A DNA stretch of 36,014 nucleotides from Sphingobacteriales bacterium (GTDB lineage Bacteria > Bacteroidota > Bacteroidia > Chitinophagales > Chitinophagaceae), in contig REAR01000077.1 of assembly GCA_004295245.1 (NCBI GenBank), positions 1-36,014 on the forward strand. Reading direction: 5' to 3'. Every line of letters starts with the position of its first letter. Positions within the stretch are counted from its first letter, which is position 1. The notes below the pieces were generated by a model, which saw nothing but the letters and a program-made list of their open reading frames with translations, searched no databases and was not told where the DNA came from. Positions 9,195 through 36,014 of the stretch are shown here, one piece after another. Both the position numbers and the translations under genes were made by a program.

Positions 9195-10289
9195 ATGGTT
9201 AACTGGTACGAAATAAATGACTGCACCCAGCTAGACTCTCCAGCCCTGGTGGTATTTACTGACCGTGTACAACACAATATTGCAGAAGCTATTAAAATGA
9301 TTGGCGACGTTACCCGGTTGCGACCACATGTAAAAACGCATAAGTCAGCACAAGCAACAGCATTATTATTACAGGCAGGCATTACTAAATTTAAATGTGC
9401 CACCATTGCAGAGGCAGAAATGCTGGCACAATGCCAGGCACCAGATGTTTTATTAGCGTACCAACCCACCGGACCTAAACTACAACGCTTTATCAACCTT
9501 ATAAAAAAATATCCGGCTACACAGTTCTCTTGTCTTACAGACAATATCGTGGCAGCAACAGAACAGTCAGCAGCTTTTGCAGCTGCTCAACTTACCATAC
9601 CCGTATTTATTGATTTAAATGTAGGCATGAACCGCACTGGCATTTTGCCCAATAAAGATGCCATAGCATTAGCCAACCAATGCAAGGCTTTGGATGGAAT
9701 GCTATTAAAGGGTTTGCATGCTTACGATGGCCATATAAGAGACACAGACTTTGCAACCAAAAAAGAAAAATGTGATGTTGTCTATGAGCAGGTTATTACT
9801 TTAAATAATCAATTGCAATTGCCCGTAATTATTATGGGTGGCTCGCCCAGTTTTTCTGTGCATTGCAAAAGAAACAATATTGAATGCAGCCCCGGTACTT
9901 TTATTTACTGGGATAAAGGGTATAGCCATCTTTGCTCCGAACAAAATTTTTTACCCGCAGCAGTTTTAATTACCCGTGTTATTTCTTTACCTGCCGCTGA
10001 TAAAATCTGTCTCGATTTAGGGCATAAATCTGTTGCAGCAGAAAATGAAATGAGTCGTAGAGTTTTTTTCTTAAATGCTCCCGAACTGCAGCCAATAAGC
10101 CAAAGCGAAGAGCACCTGGTAGTAGCTGCACCAGAAAATCATACTTATAAAACCGGAAGTATTTTATATGCATTGCCTTTTCATATTTGCCCAACAGTAG
10201 CCCTTTATGAAAAAGTAGTTACTTGTAAAAACGGCAATATTACAGGCACCTGGCAAAATATAGCAAGAGACAGAATACTCACTATTTGA
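9195..10289 (+). CDS. D-threonine aldolase / D-serine dehydratase-like PLP enzyme (fold type III)
   Basis: Cytoplasmic enzyme of 364 aa of the alanine-racemase-like (fold III) D-TA family. The PLP site is RPHVKTHKS (residues 43-51), and one lysine of KTHK forms the Schiff base. The barrel shows FIDLNVGMNRTG and GLHAYDGH. Near the C-terminus PFHICPT provides His330 and Cys332, placed like the zinc pair of chicken D-serine dehydratase and the metal ligands of D-threonine aldolases. It should cleave or deaminate a D-beta-hydroxy amino acid. The His-x-Cys pair slightly favours the dehydratase-like branch, but activity cannot be assigned from sequence. The start ATG lies 2 bp after the RidA stop. 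Confidence 0.87.
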   Translation: MVNWYEINDCTQLDSPALVVFTDRVQHNIAEAIKMIGDVTRLRPHVKTHKSAQATALLLQAGITKFKCATIAEAEMLAQCQAPDVLLAYQPTGPKLQRFINLIKKYPATQFSCLTDNIVAATEQSAAFAAAQLTIPVFIDLNVGMNRTGILPNKDAIALANQCKALDGMLLKGLHAYDGHIRDTDFATKKEKCDVVYEQVITLNNQLQLPVIIMGGSPSFSVHCKRNNIECSPGTFIYWDKGYSHLCSEQNFLPAAVLITRVISLPAADKICLDLGHKSVAAENEMSRRVFFLNAPELQPISQSEEHLVVAAPENHTYKTGSILYALPFHICPTVALYEKVVTCKNGNITGTWQNIARDRILTI

Positions 10290-24334: not shown

Positions 24335-25015
24335 TCATTTGGTAATAATGCAGGAACCGCCAGAATCGGGTAAGGCTGTATAATTAATTTGTTGCTCAGC
24401 GCAAAACTGCATCACTGCTTGGCGGGCGCCTTTGTAAGCATCATTATTAAAGTCGTGCACAAAAATATAACCACCCTGCACCAGCTTGGGGTAAAAAAAA
24501 TGCAAGCCATTATACAGTGGTTCATATAAATCTGTATCCAAACTTACAAATACAAACTGGTCGTTTAAATTTTTTGCAGATTCTGGAAAAAAGCCTTTAA
24601 TAATTTTACACTGCTGGCGGTGGGGCATAATAGACAAAACAGCTTCTACAGAAGTATCAGAAAAATCCTGATTACCGGTTGAGAATGATTCTTTTCTTTC
24701 TTTTTCAGTATCTCTGCTATCAAACCCTTCAAAAGTATCCAGCAGGTATAAGGTTCTGTTAGCAAAATACTGGTTCATATAGCGGGCAAACTTTCCCTTA
24801 TAAACCCCCAGCTCTGCTACATTGCCTTTTAATTGCTTGCGTTCAATTTCATGTGCCGCCAGTTCTAATGCTGATAGCCTTATATAATCAAGGTAGTTTT
24901 TATCAATAGTACGGGTTCGCTCTAAATATTCTAATGAAGCATTTATATGCAAATGCTTTTTTTGCAGCAGCGGCCCCATTATATAATTAACAGATTTTAT
25001 AAGAAAGCGTATCAT
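24335..25015 (-). CDS. TylF/MycF-like class I methyltransferase
   Basis: Cytoplasmic protein of 226 aa resembling the TylF family of SAM-dependent O-methyltransferases. The SAM-binding loop is NVAELGVYKGKFARYM, followed by LYLLDTFEGFDSRD, where the acidic end of strand 2 would bind the SAM ribose. VSLDTDLYEPLYNGL and GYIFVHDFNND hold the acidic residues that bind metal in TylF/MycF. TylF and MycF methylate deoxysugars on macrolides, while Bacteroidota homologues occur in polysaccharide and glycan gene sets. No glycan cluster is adjacent here, so the substrate is open. The gene stands alone between inverted repeats L and M (24267-25122). Confidence 0.88.
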   Translation of the reverse strand: MIRFLIKSVNYIMGPLLQKKHLHINASLEYLERTRTIDKNYLDYIRLSALELAAHEIERKQLKGNVAELGVYKGKFARYMNQYFANRTLYLLDTFEGFDSRDTEKERKESFSTGNQDFSDTSVEAVLSIMPHRQQCKIIKGFFPESAKNLNDQFVFVSLDTDLYEPLYNGLHFFYPKLVQGGYIFVHDFNNDAYKGARQAVMQFCAEQQINYTALPDSGGSCIITK

Positions 25016-25074: not shown

Positions 25075-25122
25075 AAGTGTGCGACGCAACGGTGTTGCCA
25101 TGAAAAAATAATGCTGGTTACC
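25075..25122 (-). repeat. REP-like repeat, copy M
   Basis: Full core AAGTGTGCGACGCAAC, then GGTGTTGCCATG, ending ATGCTGGTTACC. It is the inverse of copy L and the two flank the methyltransferase gene. Confidence 0.82.
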
Positions 25123-25127
25123 TGCAA

Positions 25128-26540
25128 TTAATTTTCATTCTTCTTTCGGTAATCTGCTGCCACGGCACGGGCAATGTATCCACTTATCCAACCCACATAG
25201 CCATATCGGGGAAAATAAAAACGCTTTTGCGGCTGGGTGCTGTTGAGTTCTGTTATCAATCCATCTAACCAAATGGCACCGGCTATAATTGATTCCTGAT
25301 CAAAGGTATTTTGTGCACGGCTAACGTTTATGCGGGCCTGCTTTAACGTGTTATCATTTATTATATGCGCCATGCCGGGCTGTATGAGAGCTCCAAAATT
25401 TTGTGCGGCCATATTTTTAAACCGGCGCACATCTTCTGGTGTAATTTCTATATAATTATCCATTGCTTTTTCAGGGTACAGATACGACACCATACACCAT
25501 ACAATACCACCACTCACATACACACTGCCGCGGTTTTTTAAACCCGCACGGCGGCCTAATTCTGTTCTTGCCGTTTGCTGTAAACTATCTCTCCATAACA
25601 AGGCGGCCTTGCCGGCAAAATCGGCAATGCCCGCCGGGTTTTTATCTTTTATAATTTTTACAAAAGACTTAGTGCCCACATTCAACACCAGTGGGTCAAA
25701 GGTTTCTGTGGCATCCATAAAATAGCCACCCTTAGTGCTGCCACTGCCTATATCTATTAAACTGGTGGTGTATCTTCTTTTGGGTGGCACGGTTCCTAAT
25801 ACAGAAAGTTCACTTTCTTCTGCAGGTGTTACAAATTTTATACTAAACCCTGCTGGTGCATTGGCGGGGGTAACGGCACTAATAAATTCTGCCAGTTTAT
25901 TTTTTTTATCCAACTCTGCTTTAAAACTGCTGGCCATTACCACATAAATATTGCTGCCCGCTATGCCGTATTTAGTTTTAGCGGCTTCTAAAAAAAATTT
26001 AATAGCATCGGCTGTTTCCTGGTTGCTTTGTGCAGTAATAGCACCGGGCTCGGGGTTTACAGAAGTATCGGCACGCAACACATATTCTACCTCGTTACTG
26101 CTATTTAATTCTACCGCCACAATACTCATTTTTACGCCTTTGGTAGTTATTTCTATGCCGGCATACGCTTGCGCCACCCCTTCAGCACTATTCAGCAATT
26201 GCTCTACCGCTTTCTGACTGAGTGACATTTTCAGTTGCTTGTAAATAGTGATGGAACGATTGAAATAACGGGCGGCTTCAGTTAAATTATCCTGGTCTTT
26301 ATACAACATACCCAGGTTTTCATACATCGCCGCTTCCCAGTATTTATCTCCTTGTGCTGTTACCAGCTGCAAGCCTTTACGCAGGTATTGTTCACTTAAA
26401 TCATATTGTTGTGCTTCCCGCAGCGTATTGCCCAACTTTAAGTAACGTAAGGCATTGTTTATTTTTTTATAGCCGTCTTGTGCCTGCACGGTAGCAAACA
26501 ACAACAAACAACAGCAAAATATTCCTAGCAGGTGCTTCAT
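25128..26540 (-). CDS. Exported TPR protein with a Ppx/GppA-like (ASKHA) domain
   Basis: Protein of 470 aa. Residues 1-20 form a signal peptide ending VQA, so it should reach the periplasm. Residues about 25-110 are TPR-like helices (YLKLGNTLREAQQYDLSEQY; YENLGMLYKDQDNLTEAARY). From about 125 the sequence follows the exopolyphosphatase/GppA plan: a first strand loop AGIEITTKGVKMSI, the EEARL-like motif AEESELSVLG (240-249), the phosphate loop SLIDIGSGSTKGGYF (260-274), NVGTKSF and VSGGIVW. The first loop differs from the usual D-x-G-S-N-S, so activity is uncertain. Known Ppx/GppA enzymes act on polyphosphate or pppGpp in the cytoplasm, so export is unexpected. Last gene of a tight operon, 5 bp after the VWA-like lipoprotein gene. 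Confidence 0.82.
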   Translation of the reverse strand: MKHLLGIFCCCLLLFATVQAQDGYKKINNALRYLKLGNTLREAQQYDLSEQYLRKGLQLVTAQGDKYWEAAMYENLGMLYKDQDNLTEAARYFNRSITIYKQLKMSLSQKAVEQLLNSAEGVAQAYAGIEITTKGVKMSIVAVELNSSNEVEYVLRADTSVNPEPGAITAQSNQETADAIKFFLEAAKTKYGIAGSNIYVVMASSFKAELDKKNKLAEFISAVTPANAPAGFSIKFVTPAEESELSVLGTVPPKRRYTTSLIDIGSGSTKGGYFMDATETFDPLVLNVGTKSFVKIIKDKNPAGIADFAGKAALLWRDSLQQTARTELGRRAGLKNRGSVYVSGGIVWCMVSYLYPEKAMDNYIEITPEDVRRFKNMAAQNFGALIQPGMAHIINDNTLKQARINVSRAQNTFDQESIIAGAIWLDGLITELNSTQPQKRFYFPRYGYVGWISGYIARAVAADYRKKNEN

Positions 26541-26545
26541 GCTTA

Positions 26546-27778
26546 TTAACCGCCTTTTTTATTTTTTTTGATGCCCGTATTAAATCCTTTTTTAGGTGCA
26601 GCATCATTTAATATATCATCTTCTTTTTTAGGAGCTGCTACCGGCTTAACGGGTACCACTTCTTTTTTTTTGCTGATGGTAGCCGCCATTGCTTCTTCAC
26701 TTTCATCTGTAGTTGTGTTAATCACCGGCTTGCGACTTTGCACCAATGGCCTAATAATGGCACTGTTTTTATTAGCATTGCCGGCAGGCACTGTAATAGC
26801 GGTTGGCTTAGCAGGCGCTGTTTCTGTATCGTCGTCGGTGGTAACAGGCGTCCAGCTAACGGGTGCTATCTTTTGCGCAATAGTGGTTTTCATAAACTTC
26901 TCCAGCGATTCTTTTACTTCATTTATATTATCATCTTTAACAAATCGATAATTAGTAATACCCATTTCTGTAAACCACTTGCTCCAGGTACGGGTTAATA
27001 AATTATATTCTCCATTCCACTCTGGTTTAGGGTTAATTTCAAGCAGCACTACTTTTAATTTTTTAAACTGTTTGTTTACGGGTATCAACCCATAATCACC
27101 TTCTTCAAACTTCACATTCCAATCGGTAAAACCTTTTAGCGCATTAATAACCTGCGCACAACTGGTATAGCGGTTTTTTTGAGTGGGCCGTTCTGTGCCG
27201 TTTTCAAAATCAAGATAGCCATCGGTAATAATGAACAAGGTGTTTTGTGCAGCGGTATCCAAATCATCTTCCAGGTCTTCGTCAAAATATTTCCATATAT
27301 CTGCACCGCTATAATCTTTACTGCGGTTGCTGATAACGGCCTGCTTGTATATTTCTGGTAAAACAGTTGTTAATCTTTTTTGGGTTTCCTCTACCTGTGT
27401 AGCTTTTTTTTCAGGCGTTTCAGTTGCCAACTCAGTTCTTAAGCTGCCTACCATATCAAAAACAGCAACAGGTGTTGATTGCTGTGGCGCCACTAGTAAT
27501 TTTATTTTATCAGTAGCCCGGTAATAAAGATGTGTGGGGTCTTTCTCATCCAGCCGGCTTTTAAACAAAGCGTAAATAGCATTTATTACCGTAAGATCTT
27601 TAGCAACCTGTTGCTGATTATTGGCCAATACCCGGTCGCTGAGGTCTAATAAAACAATATAATTGTCTTTGGGTGGCGGCGGAATGTCTTTCTGTGCATC
27701 TTTTACCGCCTGCTGAAACTCGCTGCAGCCAACCAGTAGCGTACAAATTAGTAGTATAAAATACCTGCTTCGCAACAT
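26546..27778 (-). CDS. Lipoprotein with VWA-like domain
   Basis: Protein of 410 aa. A lipoprotein signal peptide ends in the lipobox LLVGC (Cys18). The following residues (SEF) are not strongly acidic, so surface export is not indicated. Residues about 38-300 look like a von Willebrand A fold: strand YIVLLDLSDR with a MIDAS-like D-x-S (Asp45, Ser47), SGADIW near 157-162, and IITDGY (Asp186) before a later strand. The C-terminal ~110 residues are low-complexity and Pro/Thr/Lys-rich, ending in basic residues, and are probably disordered. VWA domains usually bind partner proteins through a metal ion. It lies 11 bp after the 4-TM coiled-coil gene and 5 bp before the TPR/Ppx gene. Function is unknown; a scaffold role is inference. 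Confidence 0.78.
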   Translation of the reverse strand: MLRSRYFILLICTLLVGCSEFQQAVKDAQKDIPPPPKDNYIVLLDLSDRVLANNQQQVAKDLTVINAIYALFKSRLDEKDPTHLYYRATDKIKLLVAPQQSTPVAVFDMVGSLRTELATETPEKKATQVEETQKRLTTVLPEIYKQAVISNRSKDYSGADIWKYFDEDLEDDLDTAAQNTLFIITDGYLDFENGTERPTQKNRYTSCAQVINALKGFTDWNVKFEEGDYGLIPVNKQFKKLKVVLLEINPKPEWNGEYNLLTRTWSKWFTEMGITNYRFVKDDNINEVKESLEKFMKTTIAQKIAPVSWTPVTTDDDTETAPAKPTAITVPAGNANKNSAIIRPLVQSRKPVINTTTDESEEAMAATISKKKEVVPVKPVAAPKKEDDILNDAAPKKGFNTGIKKNKKGG

Positions 27779-27789
27779 AGTTGGTTTAA

Positions 27790-29040
27790 TTATTTAAAGT
27801 ATGAATCCTGAAACTCTTTCAACTCTTTTACATACACATCGGTAGTGTGGTTAATAATTTTTATCTGCTCTTCGCCCTTATCTCTTCCGTACAAAGTACT
27901 CAGGTAACCATTCCACCCATCGCGGAAGTAATTAATATTTTTTTCCATAATGTCTACCGGCAACACCATGCGATCTTTTTCTTTACTCAGGTTTTCTATG
28001 CGTTGTGCAATATGGTGCAGCTCGGTCTCATACCCCATCCGCTTGCCTTCCATTTCCAAAATTTCATTTTGCAGGCGGGCAATCCGTTTAAAGCGTAGCT
28101 TAATCTGGTTGCGCTTGGCCCATTCCATTTGCAATAGGTAGTACACTGCACTCCAAATAGCAAATACGCCAAACCCTAAAAACAATACCAGGTAAAAACG
28201 ACTGTCTGCATACACCGGCACCATTAAACTTTTAAACTCTTCTCTGTTACTCTTAACCAAAATTTCATTAACGGCAGTATGTACCTGAAAGGCCAGTAAC
28301 AAGTCTCCTATTAATACCAGTGCCAACAACCCATACACTACTTTTTTAAACCGCTCCCCTTTCTCTGAAAACAAATGAATAGCCGTACCCAAAGCAAAAA
28401 ATATGGTAGGAAAAACAATAAGTGGCGGGTAATTAATAATAAGATAAATCAACCGCCGCAAGTTGGGCAATAGTTGAATATTTAAACGGCCCTCTTGAAA
28501 CAAGGCCATGGCATCCACACCATTCAAAGCAAAATCGGCCACACTCATGTAGAAGTATAACAGGTAAAACGACAACGCAATCAGCAGAAAAAATAAAAAG
28601 ATATAAGTGCCCCAGCTAAACACATTGTATTTGTGTTGGGTAACACTGCTGCGGCTATGTTCTATTTCATCTACCTGACTTTGCAGCAGGTTTATTTCTT
28701 GTTGCTTAATAGGCACAATGCCTTTTGTAATATCGCGGCTGCTATGTATTTCGTCGGCCTTGCTTTTAAGTTCGTAGTATTTCTCCAGTAAAGAATCTAT
28801 CTGCTTTTGAATACGCTTTTTTGTTTCTTCGGTTTTAGGCACTAAGCGTATGGCATCCTGTTCTGTTAATACCGAGCCGCTGCGTATTTTATCCAGCAAT
28901 CCTTTGTAAGCTTCCACACCGCCTTTATAGGTGCCGGCTTGCTCCACGCCATATTCACGCAGGTCTTTTACAACCACGTTGCTTAAGTCGGGCAAATGAT
29001 TGCGGCCCGTATCCAATATTTTTTTTCCGGAAATAATCAT
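27790..29040 (-). CDS. Four-TM coiled-coil membrane protein of unknown function
   Basis: Protein of 416 aa from the ATG at 29040; an in-frame TTG at 29079 would add 13 residues. I do not recognise the family. Residues about 70-128 form a coiled coil (ETKKRIQKQIDSLLEKYYEL). Four hydrophobic segments follow, near 143-165, 197-223, 234-254 and 281-304. A second coiled coil occupies about 305-358 (RIARLQNEILEMEGKRMGYE). Basic residues right after segment 4 (KRNQIKLRFKR) place both coiled coils in the cytoplasm. There is no signal peptide, catalytic motif or transporter signature. First gene of an operon with a VWA-like lipoprotein and an exported TPR/Ppx-like protein, so it may anchor or signal to a periplasmic complex across the membrane; this is inference. 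Confidence 0.82.
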   Translation of the reverse strand: MIISGKKILDTGRNHLPDLSNVVVKDLREYGVEQAGTYKGGVEAYKGLLDKIRSGSVLTEQDAIRLVPKTEETKKRIQKQIDSLLEKYYELKSKADEIHSSRDITKGIVPIKQQEINLLQSQVDEIEHSRSSVTQHKYNVFSWGTYIFLFFLLIALSFYLLYFYMSVADFALNGVDAMALFQEGRLNIQLLPNLRRLIYLIINYPPLIVFPTIFFALGTAIHLFSEKGERFKKVVYGLLALVLIGDLLLAFQVHTAVNEILVKSNREEFKSLMVPVYADSRFYLVLFLGFGVFAIWSAVYYLLQMEWAKRNQIKLRFKRIARLQNEILEMEGKRMGYETELHHIAQRIENLSKEKDRMVLPVDIMEKNINYFRDGWNGYLSTLYGRDKGEEQIKIINHTTDVYVKELKEFQDSYFK

Positions 29041-29340: not shown

Positions 29341-29388
29341 AAGTGTGCGACGCAACAACCGATGCCATGAAAGCCGCTGCTGGTTACC
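29341..29388 (-). repeat. REP-like repeat, copy O (near consensus)
   Basis: Full core AAGTGTGCGACGCAAC, then GATGCCATG, ending GCTGCTGGTTACC. Inverted partner of copy N. Together with 29041-29179 they fill the 355-bp gap between the envelope operon and adenine deaminase. No gene is visible in the gap. Confidence 0.82.
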
Positions 29389-29395
29389 CAAAAAA

Positions 29396-31027
29396 TCAGG
29401 CTACAAAGCTAAAGTTGTTGCCATCAAACAACCCTTTATCGCTTAGCTTAAGATGAGGTATTACCAGCAGGGCCATAAAAGAAAGCGTCATAAAAGGTGC
29501 CGTTAATGTGCTGCCCATGGTTTTGGCCATTGCATCTATAGCGGTGTAGGCCGCGGCTACTTCATACCCATCGTTCATGCTCATTAAACCAGCAACCGGC
29601 AGCGGTACTATTTGTTGTTGTGTATTGCTAATGGCACTTACGCCGCCGCGGTGTTCTATTACCAAATTAATAGCCCGGCAAAGGCTTTCATCATCCACAC
29701 CCACGGCTACAATATTGTGGCTATCGTGCGCCACCGAAGAGGCCAACGCACCTTCTTTTAACCCAATATTTTTTATAAAAGCTTTTGCCACCGGTGCGGC
29801 ATGGTATCGGTTTACCACCACCATTTTCAACACATCGGTTTGGGTATTGCTTACCAGCTCATCATTAACAATGGTGGCGGGCAGTGCCAGCTTATTAGTA
29901 ATTAATTGTCCGTCTAAAGCTTCAATTACCGGTATGGTTGTTTGGCCGGGGCTAGCGGGCATGGCAAGTGCCGCTGTAGTTATAGTACTAACATTAAAAT
30001 TATTGAGTGGCGTGGTATTGGTTGCAGGTACAGTAATACAGCTTTGTCCGTTGTTAGCAACCAGTTGCCCGTTAATATAAGTTTGCTGTACTTCAAAATT
30101 CTGCAGGTTATTTACCAATACAAAATCGGCCGCATGGCCGGGTTGCAGTAAACCCACATCTAACTTGTAATGTAATACAGGGTTTATGCAAGCTGCCCGT
30201 AAAACATGAAACACGTTAACGCCTTTGGCAACAGCTCTGGCACATAACTGGTTAATATGCCCCAATGCTAAACTATCGGGGTGTTTATCGTCGCTGCAAA
30301 ACATAATTTGTTCTGGGTATTGGTGCAGCAGGTCTATCAAGGCATCAAAATTTTTAGCGGCACTGCCTTCGCGGATGATGATCTTCATACCGTGTTGCAA
30401 TTTGTCTGATGCCTCTTCGGCCGTAAAACATTCATGATCGGTACTGATGCCTGCTGCAATATAATTTTTTGCCGCCTCGCCTCTTAAGCCGGGGGCATGC
30501 CCATCAACGGGTTTACCGGCTGTATGCGCGGCAGCTATCTTTTGCATTACTTCCGGGTCTTTATGCAACACCCCGGGAAAGTTCATCATCTCTGCCAGGT
30601 ATTTTATATCGGGCCGGGCTAACAGTGTTTCTATGTCTTTAGGGCTAATGATGGCACCGGCCGTTTCAAAAACAGTAGCAGGCACGCAACTGGGGGCACC
30701 AAAATAAAATTTAAACGGAACGGTATTGCCATTTTCAATCATAAACAATACACCATCCATGCCACAAACATTGGCAATTTCATGGGGGTCGCTTACCGTT
30801 GCTACCGTACCATGCACCACGGCCAGGCGGGCAAACTGTGCCGGCACCAGCATGCTGCTTTCTATATGCACATGGGCATCAATAAACCCCGGCAAAATAT
30901 ACGGCGCATTGTCGGGCAAACTACTTACAGGTGTAACGGATTGTATGCGTCCGTTACTAATTAGCAGTTCAGCCGGGTAAGTAATTTGTTTAAGAATATC
31001 TGTAAAAAAACCGGTAATGGTTGTCAT
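29396..31027 (-). CDS. ade: Adenine deaminase
   Basis: Purine salvage enzyme of 543 aa that deaminates adenine to hypoxanthine in the cytoplasm. Amidohydrolase metal motifs are [11 protein letters not shown] (His-x-His), [27 protein letters not shown] and CSDDKHPDS. The C-terminal domain typical of bacterial Ade is present ([27 protein letters not shown]). Length agrees with the family (about 540-590 aa). Single gene, divergent from the LolA-like pair, with a 150-bp promoter gap. Confidence 0.95.
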
Positions 31028-33037: not shown

Positions 33038-36014
33038 ATGCATACGAGAAAATTTCTTTTAACAGGGTTAAGCATTGTACTTACCTGTGTGGCCGCAAAG
33101 GCACAAATAAACTCCAACACGTTTGGTATGATGGAAGCCCGGCAAATAGGGCCCGGCACCATGAGTGGCCGTATTAGCGCCATTGAAGGCGTGGCAGAAG
33201 ATGGCAAAACCATTTACATTGGCACCGCCGGTGGCGGCGTTTGGAAAACCACCAATGCCGGTGCTTCTTTTAAACCCATTTTTGATAAATACTGCCAAAG
33301 CATTGGCGCCATTGCCATCAATCAAAAAAATTCCAAGGTTGTTTATGTTGGCACCGGCGAAAGCAATATGCGCAACTCGGTTTCTATTGGCAATGGTTTA
33401 TATAAAACAACTGATGCCGGTGATAACTGGAACCGTATTGGATTAGACAGCACAGAGAAGATTGCAAAAATTGCCATCAACCCTAACAACCCGGATGTAG
33501 TGTATGTGGCAGCACCAGGCCCGCTTTGGGCCGATAGTAAACACCGCGGCTTATATAAAACTACCGACGCCGGTAAAACATGGGAGAAAATTTTATACAT
33601 CAACGAAAAAGCCGGTGTGGCAGATGTGGCTATAGACCCCGCCAACCCGGAAACAGTGTATGCCAGCAGTTGGGAGTTTAGAAGACTGCCTTATTTATTT
33701 AACAGCGGTGGCAATGGCAGTGGTATGTATAAAAGTATGGATGGCGGTAAAACATGGAAAGAATTAACCAACGGATTACCCGCTAAACCTTTTGGCCGCA
33801 TTGCATTTACGCTGGCGCCCAGTGCCCCGCAAAATATGGTTGCTATTGTGGAGGCTAAAGAAACCGGTTTATACATTAGTGCGGATGGTGGAGAGAGCTG
33901 GAAAAAACAAAGCGCTACTTTAAACGTAGTATCGCGTCCGTTTTATTTTTCAACCATTGTGGTTGACCCTAAAGACCCCAAGCGGGTGTATCGTCCTGCT
34001 TATAGTTTTTCATATTCTAATGATGGTGGTTACTCGTTTGCAGAAGCCAGTGGCGATGGCGGATGGGTGCACAGCGATCATCATGCCCTTTGGATAAACC
34101 CCAATAACACCAACCATATGTATTTAGGCACCGATGGTGGTGTATATGTAAGTATGGACCGTGGTGCCACCTGGTTGTTTTTACAAAACTTACCGGTAGG
34201 TCAGTTCTATCATGTAGCTACCGATAATCAGGAGCCTTACCGTATTTATGGCGGCTTGCAGGATAACGGCAGTTGGGTGGCACCCAGTGCCGCACCCGGT
34301 GGCGTAAGCAACAGCAACTGGATGGCTATTTATGGCGGTGATGGTTTTTGGACGATACCCGACCCCACCGACCCTAACACAGCCTATGCAGAATACCAGG
34401 GTGGTAATGTGGCCCGCATTAATTTAACTACTGTAAAAAATGTTTCTATTAAACCACAGCAGGCAGCCGGAGAAGAAAAGTTGCGCTGGAACTGGAACAC
34501 ACCCTTAGCAATAGGCCAAAAAAATGCAAAGAACTTATACATGGGGGCGCAGTACTTATATAAATCAACCGACCAGGGCCGTAACTGGACCCGTATTTCT
34601 GCCGACCTTACCACCAACGATAAGAAAAAACAAGAACAGGAAAATAGCGGTGGCTTAAGCGCCGATAATACATCAGCAGAAAACCATTGTACCATTTTTA
34701 CCATTACAGAATCTCCGCTGGATGAAAATTTAGTATGGGCCGGTACTGATGATGGCAACCTGCAATACACTTCTGATGGTGGTAAAACGTGGACCAATGT
34801 TGCTGCTAATTACAAAGCAGCAGGCATCCCCGCACAAACCTGGATAAGCAGTATAGAACCTAGCCGTTTTGATAAAAACACTGTGTACGCAAGTTTTGAT
34901 AATCACATGTACGGAGACCATCAAACATATATTGGTAAATCAACCGACATGGGTAAAACATGGACACTGTTTAAGAGCAATGAGTTTACCGGCTTTGCGC
35001 ACAAGATTAAAGAAGACCTTACAAATAAAAACCTGTTGTTTGCCGGCACAGAAATGGGCCTGTTTAGTTCAGTTGATGGAGGCGCCACCTGGTTTCGTAT
35101 GAAAAATAATATTCCCTGGTATGCCTTGGTAAGAGATATTCAAATACATCCTAAAACCAACGACCTTGTAATTGCCACACATGGCCGTGGCATTATTATA
35201 CTGGATGATATTACACCCATACGCAACCTAACAAAAGATATTGCCGATAAAGAAGTGTATCTGTTTGAAACGGGTACTCAAAAATTAACCACAGGTAATT
35301 TTGGCGATGGCGGTTTTCCCAGCACGGGCGGATGGAATGGCGGCAACCCCGCTGCTATTGCACCCATACAGTATTATTTAAAAGACCGCTTAAATACCGG
35401 CGATGTGAAAGTGGAAATTTATGATGCCGCCGGTAAACTGGTGCAAAGCATACCCGGCAGTAAACGCAAAGGCATTAACCGCGTTTATTGGAACCAACGC
35501 ATGAAGCCACCTAAAGTAGCCACTGGTAGTGCCAAAATTGATTTTGGTGGCTTTATTGCGCCACAGGTATTGCCGGGCAACTACACCGTTAAATTAAAAG
35601 TGGCCGATAAAGAATATAGCAACGGCATACAATTGGTGCACGATGAAAACAATAAATCGTTTACCACAGCCGACCGCCAAAAACAATTTGATGCTTCTAT
35701 GCAATTGTATACCCTGCACGAAGAGTTGGCAAAAACAGTAGAAGATATTACCGGCAAACAAAAAATGCTGAAAGAAAATATTGATAAAACCAAAAACGCC
35801 AAACTTAAAAAGCTGCTGCAGGAGTACCACGATAAATTAGAAACCCTGCGGGCAGAATGTTTGGCTACTAAACAAAAAAGCATTTTTGCTGATGAAGAGC
35901 GCATCCGCGAACGCATTACCGATGTGTACCAGGCTGTAGCCGGACAGGAAGCGGCGCCCAGCAACCTGCAAATACAACGCATCAGTGTGTTGCAAAATGA
36001 AGTAAGTAAAGCGG
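33038..36014 (+). CDS. Secreted Asp-box / VPS10-like beta-propeller protein (3' end outside window)
   Basis: The frame is open from the ATG at 33038 to the window edge (992 codons, no stop), so the gene is partial. Signal peptide MHTRKFLLTGLSIVLTCVAAKA. The body repeats Asp-box motifs about ten times, for example KTTDAGDNW, KTTDAGKTW, KSMDGGKTW, ISADGGESW, VSMDRGATW, KSTDQGRNW, YTSDGGKTW and SSVDGGATW. Each sits in a beta blade with lines such as NPNNPDVVYVA, as in sortilin/VPS10 and BNR-type propellers. HGRGIIILDDITPIRNL closes the propeller. A beta-sandwich-like region (VEIYDAAGKLVQSI) follows, and then a coiled-coil-like stretch rich in Lys and Glu up to the edge. Family members are about 1000-1100 aa, so little is missing. 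Likely periplasmic or surface; substrate unknown. Confidence 0.9.
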   Translation, partial: MHTRKFLLTGLSIVLTCVAAKAQINSNTFGMMEARQIGPGTMSGRISAIEGVAEDGKTIYIGTAGGGVWKTTNAGASFKPIFDKYCQSIGAIAINQKNSKVVYVGTGESNMRNSVSIGNGLYKTTDAGDNWNRIGLDSTEKIAKIAINPNNPDVVYVAAPGPLWADSKHRGLYKTTDAGKTWEKILYINEKAGVADVAIDPANPETVYASSWEFRRLPYLFNSGGNGSGMYKSMDGGKTWKELTNGLPAKPFGRIAFTLAPSAPQNMVAIVEAKETGLYISADGGESWKKQSATLNVVSRPFYFSTIVVDPKDPKRVYRPAYSFSYSNDGGYSFAEASGDGGWVHSDHHALWINPNNTNHMYLGTDGGVYVSMDRGATWLFLQNLPVGQFYHVATDNQEPYRIYGGLQDNGSWVAPSAAPGGVSNSNWMAIYGGDGFWTIPDPTDPNTAYAEYQGGNVARINLTTVKNVSIKPQQAAGEEKLRWNWNTPLAIGQKNAKNLYMGAQYLYKSTDQGRNWTRISADLTTNDKKKQEQENSGGLSADNTSAENHCTIFTITESPLDENLVWAGTDDGNLQYTSDGGKTWTNVAANYKAAGIPAQTWISSIEPSRFDKNTVYASFDNHMYGDHQTYIGKSTDMGKTWTLFKSNEFTGFAHKIKEDLTNKNLLFAGTEMGLFSSVDGGATWFRMKNNIPWYALVRDIQIHPKTNDLVIATHGRGIIILDDITPIRNLTKDIADKEVYLFETGTQKLTTGNFGDGGFPSTGGWNGGNPAAIAPIQYYLKDRLNTGDVKVEIYDAAGKLVQSIPGSKRKGINRVYWNQRMKPPKVATGSAKIDFGGFIAPQVLPGNYTVKLKVADKEYSNGIQLVHDENNKSFTTADRQKQFDASMQLYTLHEELAKTVEDITGKQKMLKENIDKTKNAKLKKLLQEYHDKLETLRAECLATKQKSIFADEERIRERITDVYQAVAGQEAAPSNLQIQRISVLQNEVSKA

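Follow-up and report, generated by a model that had tools for sequence, protein, structure and literature searches.

A conserved gene pair for a four-helix membrane protein and a putative VWA-fold lipoprotein in Bacteroidota, with an exchangeable third gene

Introduction

Several described bacterial systems place a VWA protein next to membrane proteins or defence loci, and the comparisons made here draw on parts of the papers cited. In the T6SSiii type VI secretion system (T6SS) of Bacteroidota, the multi-transmembrane inner-membrane protein TssN interacts with TssR, a lipoprotein with a vWA-like domain (PMC10781749). The vWA-MoxR ternary conflict systems have a MoxR AAA+ ATPase as their core partner (PMC7159879), and vWA-related systems with transmembrane, kinase, phosphatase and tubulin proteins were reported near CRISPR loci (Altae-Tran et al. 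2023, PMC10910872). Among the membrane effectors of type III CRISPR systems, Cam1, Csx23 and CorA are responsive to a nucleotide messenger, as Cam2 is predicted to be (PMC11229360). The locus compared with them here is an operon of three genes at positions 25128–29040 of a 36,014-nucleotide stretch of DNA, called the window, which is a single contig (G000:C136) of a 3.37-Mb genome in 269 contigs whose nearest named relatives are Chitinophagaceae, e.g. Niastella. Gene 1 encodes a membrane protein (P0003) with four transmembrane (4-TM) segments, gene 2 a lipoprotein with a modelled VWA fold (P0002) and gene 3 an apparently exported protein (P0001) with a TPR region and a distantly Ppx/GppA-like part.

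Results

The conserved unit at this locus is the pair of genes 1 and 2, not the triple. Gene 1 relatives of 76–84% identity occur at 11 named loci, which with the window make 12 close loci, and gene 2 adjoins gene 1 in all 12, including one (L015) where gene 1 is divided between two reading frames. Across 395 Bacteroidota genomes, the gene 1 profile (16 rows) has hits in 30 (E ≤ 1e-3), of which 22 are strong (E ≤ 1.2e-19), and the gene 2 profile (15 rows) has hits in 23; wherever the gene 1 hit is strong, in 22 of 22 genomes, the two genes are neighbours on the same strand. The remaining eight gene 1 hits are weak (E 9.8e-5 to 6.5e-4), lack an adjacent gene 2 hit and are treated as chance coiled-coil matches; the exception to the pairing is G346, where a gene 2 hit (E 3.7e-10) lies on a different contig from the weak gene 1 hit and has no adjacent gene 1. 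In the 36 of 41 loci with each gene called once, the pair is always on the same strand with a spacing of −41 to +53 bp, an approximate range, as gene calls outside the window are the longest non-overlapping open reading frames. Genes 1 and 2 and the OmpA-like gene described below are under purifying selection among three Niastella/Longitalea loci (L007, L009, L014; dN/dS 0.03–0.10).

The two proteins are found in a single chain on a plasmid. With a flavobacterial gene 1 relative as the query, the sole match among 72,556 plasmid records is a relative of 22.8% identity on pSP2_2 of Runella sp. SP2. This protein of 704 residues (P0004) contains the 4-TM family at residues 45–418 (E 1.6e-53), the VWA family at 469–702 (E 8.9e-40) and a fifth hydrophobic helix at 446–464, ahead of the VWA domain. 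A physical link between the products of genes 1 and 2 is therefore likely, and the fifth helix would place the VWA domain across the membrane from the coiled coils. The fused gene sits downstream of cas6, cmr1, cas10, cmr3-6 and csx2 in a type III-B CRISPR locus (L169), between a WYL regulator on the opposite strand and the genes for a primase-polymerase, cas2 and cas1. P0003 itself has no match in the plasmid collection, where the fused Runella protein finds only itself; one flavobacterial gene 1 relative has no match in the phage collection, and there is none among the viral contigs (viral_contigs) with single back-translated patterns, an insensitive search.

In the family of the window, gene 1 is present at E ≤ 1e-8 in 17 of 244 genomes and 14 of 101 genera; the absence of a hit from the other 227 genomes argues against a general housekeeping role. 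A broader profile has hits at the same threshold in 14 of 395 genomes in a class-level scan. The class of G276 comprised only four genomes. Copies of the pair that are decayed, or split between frames, are seen at L035:8321-9375, L191:9327-11519 (in G223) and L015:10049-11253, and such copies fit a patchy accessory module.

Gene 2 (26546–27778; it and all gene features below are on the minus strand) encodes the 410-residue P0002, whose hydrophobic leader ends in the lipobox cysteine Cys18 (27725–27727), invariant in 12 close sequences. In its AlphaFold2 model, a single one computed from a 12-sequence alignment, the confidence score (predicted local distance difference test, pLDDT) is 60.6 overall and mostly 70–88 in the core, with a dip at residues 189–208; the C-terminal tail (residues 318–410, 26549–26827) is of low confidence and probably disordered. 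The VWA domain is placed at residues 36–298 (26885–27673) by fold comparison, in which the best VIA-align match has a Z of 12.3 and a root-mean-square deviation of 3.1 Å over 173 residues. Most of the 50 VIA-align rows listed are what we take to be VWA-type structures: integrin I domains, VWF A domains, Rpn10, TFIIH p34/p44, Ku and Sec23/24. Foldseek gives a weak result, a single match at E ≤ 0.001 (8.9e-4) with a TM-score by query of 0.25. As modelled, the domain has the Rossmann-like fold of VWA proteins. Fifteen members of the family together match seven curated families at E ≤ 1, none of them a VWA family, and a PDB sequence profile search returned no meaningful relative.

The residues D45, S47, R49, D61, G158, D160, D186 and G187 are invariant in all 21 gene 2 members chosen to span the family. 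The metal-ion-dependent adhesion site (MIDAS) is degenerate in these sequences: its loop D-L-S-D-R (residues 45–49, 27632–27646) reads DxSxR in 21/21, the classical DxSxS being absent, and in the T-D-G-Y loop (residues 185–188, 27215–27226) T185 and Y188 are kept in at least 90% of the 21. A complete MIDAS is missing from many VWA domains, and for this reason only the fold is claimed for P0002.

Gene 1 (27790–29040) starts with the ATG at 29040, and the N-terminus MIISGK is conserved in close relatives. Its open reading frame, hydropathy and family alignments point to an inner-membrane protein of 416 residues with hydrophobic segments at 147–165, 197–215, 234–252 and 284–302, predicted to form four transmembrane helices (residues 147–302, 28135–28602). 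Long helices precede these segments at residues 71–128 (28657–28830; AlphaFold2 helices 71–98 and 108–128, pLDDT 70–89) and follow them at 303–356 (27973–28134; AlphaFold2 helix 280–356, pLDDT 83–88 over 311–350). Both regions are probable coiled coils, a call based on the predicted long helices and on profile matches to coiled-coil chains. The whole model is poor (predicted TM-score 0.37), and a structure search with it was dropped for this reason; a PDB sequence profile search yielded coiled coils and marginal matches only. Invariant in the family alignment (A7) are G31, Y159, F163, Y164, D246, F282, G289, G375 and W376. Helices 2 and 3 are joined by a mildly basic loop (residues 216–233), which weakly suggests that both termini face inward and that both coiled coils are probably cytoplasmic. 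A SLATT profile, aligned over a helix and the first transmembrane segment, scores 15.6 bits with P0003, where the cut-off is 60. Seven relatives (L038, L039, L124, L125, L185, L189, L190) have a PLD-like region N-terminal to the equivalent of the first helices; PLDc_2 was confirmed by test in L038 and L124, and the other five calls come from alignment and reading.

The settings of the pair were inspected at 39 distant loci (30, a further 8 and the Runella locus; three are shorter than 6 kb), where many neighbours were named by reading, and Pfam and PADLOC tests were made on chosen representatives, the genes being picked by eye. Seven of the 18 distant loci without two-component genes lie in or beside established defence systems. 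Three of these are type III CRISPR loci, namely that of Runella, L184 with Csm5-like, Csx1, RtcR-CARF, Cas1 and PrimPol neighbours, and L123 with two CARF proteins, RT-Cas1 and, on the same contig at a distance of ~15 kb, a sub-cut-off Cas10 hit. BREX genes lie ~4 kb from the pair in L121 (PglZ E 1.1e-243, BrxL E 0), type I restriction genes directly upstream on the same strand in L189, type I restriction genes and ThsA on the opposite strand in L036, and AbiLi/AbiLii ~5 kb upstream in L032. In L184, a 147-residue protein (9742–10185) with no Pfam or PADLOC match is encoded between the 4-TM and VWA genes.

A PADLOC scan of called neighbours of 120 to 1000 residues within 7 kb covered 13 of these 18 loci, the two-component loci being left out. 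At E ≤ 1e-20, it gave 182 families from 103 neighbours, compared with four from 93 genes of 11 control loci (seven ASKHA and four window-clade loci, not paired genome by genome). Because PADLOC models overlap heavily, this tally counts models, derived from a modest number of genes, and not genes; among the 25 of the 182 families listed, each was matched by at most two members. Of the four control families, one is an RtcR-CARF regulator (one gene, E 2e-104) and another is mad2 (two genes).

Genes for a TPR histidine kinase and for a response regulator occur together in 21 of the 39 distant loci (19 of the first 30, and L188 and L191 by reading). They belong to a recurrent island (L033, L037–L039, L106–L112, L114–L120, L125, L188, L191), in which they are usually joined by a protein of ~310 residues on the opposite strand (18/30), then by variable nuclease and small cysteine-rich genes and often by TerB and the 4-TM/VWA pair. 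In 16 of the 30 loci, the gene immediately upstream of the pair belongs to the TerB cluster, and near the pair are an HSDR_N-type gene in ten (one a fragment), a DUF4236/small cysteine-rich protein in nine, a DUF1508 protein in seven and an endonuclease/exonuclease/phosphatase protein in four, each of these families, including TerB (PF05099), being confirmed by Pfam on one representative. SNase genes occur near L033, L036 and L185, and at L185:6916-8360 TerD-domain and OmpA-domain genes are found near the PLD-4TM/VWA pair and the SNase gene.

The third gene is exchanged between loci. Among the 12 close loci it encodes an unrelated OmpA-like lipoprotein in ten and the TPR-ASKHA protein in two (the window and REEB371). 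The OmpA-like protein matches PF00691 with E 7.7e-4 and 20.2 bits, below the cut-off of 27.2, in the one tested; elsewhere in G000, G001 and G002 no match to the OmpA-like gene was found, the two congeners being 85% complete. Gene 2 ends in KPxxxVxFGPxY at all ten OmpA-like loci and in DDILxDAAPxKGFNTGIKK at both TPR-ASKHA loci, the type of tail agreeing with the type of third gene in 12/12. This agreement fits a tail that would serve as a docking site for the third partner. The original prediction had described a three-gene system, which as a fixed unit is rejected by this exchange, and had proposed as a check that the genes stay together in other genomes; genes 1 and 2 do so in every strong gene 1 hit, while the third gene does not. 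That the genes are more than chance neighbours is borne out for genes 1 and 2 by the 12 close loci, the 22 strong phylum hits and their dN/dS.

Gene 3 (25128–26540) encodes, by its open reading frame, Pfam, alignment and hhalign, a 470-residue protein whose start resembles a signal peptide. It contains a TPR region (residues 33–103, 26232–26444; PF13424, E 3.3e-11) and an ASKHA-like domain, distantly similar to Ppx/GppA (residues 125–465, 25146–26168). In Pfam, NCBIfam and PADLOC its only matches are TPR families. In the alignment of the C-terminal part (A4, 10 sequences), E242, D263, G265 and S266 are invariant. By hhalign this part matches Ppx/GppA with 85% probability, E 6e-6 and 16% identity, and four control alignments of the other proteins all stay below 3%. 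The PDB profile match to GppA reaches only E 0.05. PF02541 does not match P0001 at E ≤ 1 and finds one other gene in G000; by this profile, P0001 is not a member of Ppx/GppA. Eight homologues of gene 3 occur away from the pair: a single TPR-bearing one in G035 (40% identity) and seven that lack TPR (27–32%), including a paralogue in the window's own genome (G000:C245), and the gene 1/2 pair is beside none of the eight loci examined. At two loci (L128:3610-6966, L130:7536-10844), an exported Ppx/GppA-like gene without TPR is flanked by two proteins which, by reading, have one N-terminal hydrophobic stretch and look helical. Because of this setting, exported proteins of the gene 3 type may partner membrane coiled-coil proteins.

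The open reading frames agree with the earlier description of three minus-strand genes with gaps of 11 bp (genes 1–2) and 5 bp (genes 2–3), and its domain readings are upheld by the four hydrophobic segments, the VWA-fold model, the TPR match and the distant Ppx/GppA similarity. The envelope location that it gave to the products is in line with the four transmembrane segments, the lipoprotein leader and the signal-peptide-like start; its MIDAS-like residues are recovered as D45-x-S47-x-R49 and D186-G187, invariant in 21/21, in a degenerate site. Genes 1 and 2 lack a named family, as it stated: neither has anything above the curated cut-offs of Pfam or NCBIfam, and the PADLOC models match gene 1 weakly (best E 0.0016), gene 2 not at all and gene 3 by a TPR model only. 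Its option of a conflict system is supported by part of the distant family, and the defence-island location that it suggested looking for is seen in some distant relatives, not in the window's branch.

The operon is flanked by genes for an adenine deaminase (29396–31027) and a TylF-like methyltransferase (24335–25015), and the Pfam scan of six flanking genes further names AnmK, UPRTase, a LolA-like protein and a sortilin-like protein. None of the six is defence-related; nuclease, TerB and ATPase genes are absent from the operon and from these six, and no cytoplasmic effector is encoded near it. There is no MoxR AAA+ gene among the six, the neighbours of the relatives having been inspected by eye only. 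In four Niastella/Longitalea loci, the same housekeeping-type neighbours, judged by eye, surround the operon. A scan for promoters and terminators found no more sites than in shuffled sequences.

An intergenic repeat resembling REP elements, GTTGCGTCGCACACTT, has 13 matches in the window at ≤3 mismatches, compared with 0.22 expected, including sites at 25075–25090, 29341–29356 and 20426–20441/20500–20515; several of the listed sites are arranged as inverted pairs. At ≤1 mismatch, it occurs 398 times forward and 393 times reverse in the genome, and just once or twice in three other genomes, two of them congeners, which looks like a recent expansion in the window's genome. A large sortilin/BNR-repeat protein (33038–36013) runs past the end of the window.

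Discussion

We give a probability of about 0.5 to the reading that the pair is a trans-membrane VWA/4-TM sensor module, which serves defence in part of its family and envelope surveillance in the window's branch. The lipid-anchored VWA domain would bind a ligand or a partner in the periplasm through its modified MIDAS site and contact the 4-TM protein at its outer loops; the helices of the 4-TM protein would relay the state of the VWA domain to the two cytoplasmic coiled coils, and these in turn may act on effectors in the cytoplasm. For at least some family members, the output is proposed to drive or recruit anti-invader machinery, such as the fused PLD-like nuclease, TerB and neighbouring CRISPR, BREX or restriction systems. 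The window's branch, in which the module lies outside defence loci, looks repurposed for envelope work; here an exchangeable periplasmic third partner, more commonly the OmpA-like protein and in the window the TPR-Ppx/GppA-like one, would dock on the tail of the VWA protein.

Several observations weigh against this reading. Members of the window's branch group in a single clade, whose stem is long (2.3 changes per site, support 100/100) and to which the tree gives no clear sister group. No defence gene was recognised in the window-branch loci inspected (six displayed), and Cmr2-type Cas10, searched with TIGR02577 only, is found in none of six branch genomes (G000, G001, G030, G095, G173, G231); the same model gave sub-cut-off matches in G767 and G396, two of 12 genomes overall. 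Type III CRISPR genes surround or adjoin the L169, L184 and L123 versions, but not the window pair. Because the branch lacks these defence partners and its six genomes gave no Cmr2-type Cas10, the defence part of the family is linked to the window operon by descent only. Among the distant loci, 11 of the 18 without two-component genes show no established defence system in the parts scanned or read, the 21 others lie in the two-component island, at most a candidate defence locus, and some pair neighbours may be passengers, since defence loci collect accessory genes. The model of P0003 is poor, and the agreement between tail and partner may reflect one evolutionary event.

A bolder version of the sensor proposal, which we consider doubtful, is that the pair is an unnamed mobile cartridge that Bacteroidota plug into unrelated immune systems to report envelope events, tamed in the window's branch. 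The systems served could tentatively be type III CRISPR, BREX, type I restriction, Thoeris, AbiL and the two-component-controlled nuclease island. The signals might, though this too is doubtful, be phage adsorption or DNA entry, with the window's cartridge made into an envelope monitor by its swapped-in periplasmic partners.

Two other readings were weighed. The module may be an envelope housekeeping device, a tether or a monitor of peptidoglycan or the outer membrane with no functional link to defence, whose relatives in defence loci borrowed the same sensor. The OmpA-like third gene in 10/12 loci (one tested, PF00691 E 7.7e-4) and the exported or membrane-bound look of all three products speak for it, but the OmpA match is below its curated cut-off, partners are exchanged and gene 1 gives no hit in 227 of the family's 244 genomes, which makes this reading rather unlikely. 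Somewhat less likely still is that the window's operon is itself a live stand-alone antiphage or anti-plasmid system that would act at the envelope, e.g. by blocking DNA entry. Such a system would suit the patchy distribution of the family (17/244 genomes, 14/101 genera), the broken copies in G223 and L035 and the relatives in defence contexts; however, the operon and the six scanned flanking genes include no nuclease, TerB or ATPase gene, the housekeeping-type neighbours are constant in the four loci compared by eye, and the genes are under purifying selection, with no plasmid match for P0003.

Sensing of polyphosphate or nucleotides in the periplasm, centred on the Ppx/GppA-like protein, is improbable. 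It would draw on D263-x-G-S and on E242, which in the hhalign register is aligned with what we take to be the catalytic Glu of Ppx, all invariant in 10/10. However, the Ppx motif GGGSTE reads GSGSTKGG at its position in P0001, and the periplasm is not expected to hold ATP; moreover, gene 3 cannot define the system because it is present in only 2/12 loci. The same 2/12 count is all that favours chance neighbourhood without a functional link, which has nothing in its favour for genes 1 and 2; their chance adjacency is refuted by the phylum-wide pairing and the fused protein, and for the operon this explanation is barely credible.

If the sensor proposal is right, cytoplasmic immune systems would have a shared envelope sensor, and the adaptive and innate defences of Bacteroidota could be tuned by events at the cell surface. 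This idea is directly testable with the PLD-fused versions and with the plasmid-borne fusion of the type III-B locus. For the window, it would explain an orphan operon and provide an example of a sensor module that swaps partners.

Comparison with known systems

The 4-TM/VWA pair, scattered across Bacteroidota, appears to be undescribed: no paper on it was found in the literature searched, mostly titles and the beginnings of abstracts. In the parts consulted, a BREX survey mentions vWA only together with MoxR (PMC12839542), and another paper lists membrane proteins in general (PMC6967390).

P0001 may resemble the Ppx/GppA family, to which it has a weak profile similarity, aligned in register at the catalytic Glu and the DIGSG loops, and differs from it in the signal-peptide-like start, the TPR fusion, the altered phosphate loop and the missing PF02541 hit. 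Links to the Ter stress-response systems (TerB/TerD/TerY) are the TerB gene upstream of the pair in 16/30 loci and TerD near L185, whereas the window operon has neither TerB nor TerD. The vWA protein TerY is cytoplasmic.

TssN and TssR are alike to the pair in combining a multi-transmembrane protein with a vWA-like lipoprotein, but TssN has five transmembrane helices (PMC10781749) and P0003 four hydrophobic segments. No Pfam family of the TssN/TssR type matches the window proteins and no T6SS gene was recognised in the loci read; with the helix number, this leaves a T6SS-like complex unsupported. The vWA-MoxR systems share with the pair a VWA protein that has variable partners in conflict systems (PMC7159879), and differ from it in their MoxR, which is absent from the scanned window genes.

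The type III membrane effectors Cam1, Csx23, CorA, Cam2 and Cam3 are, like versions of the pair, transmembrane proteins inside type III loci; unlike effectors of the Cam1 type, the pair has a predicted periplasmic VWA domain as its recognisable domain, and the main text of that paper contains neither 'Willebrand' nor 'TerB' (PMC11229360). The UAS clusters also place vWA and transmembrane proteins beside CRISPR loci; they are identified by cluster numbers, with no mechanism given in the parts consulted, and part of the pair's family may already have been glimpsed in that survey (PMC10910872).

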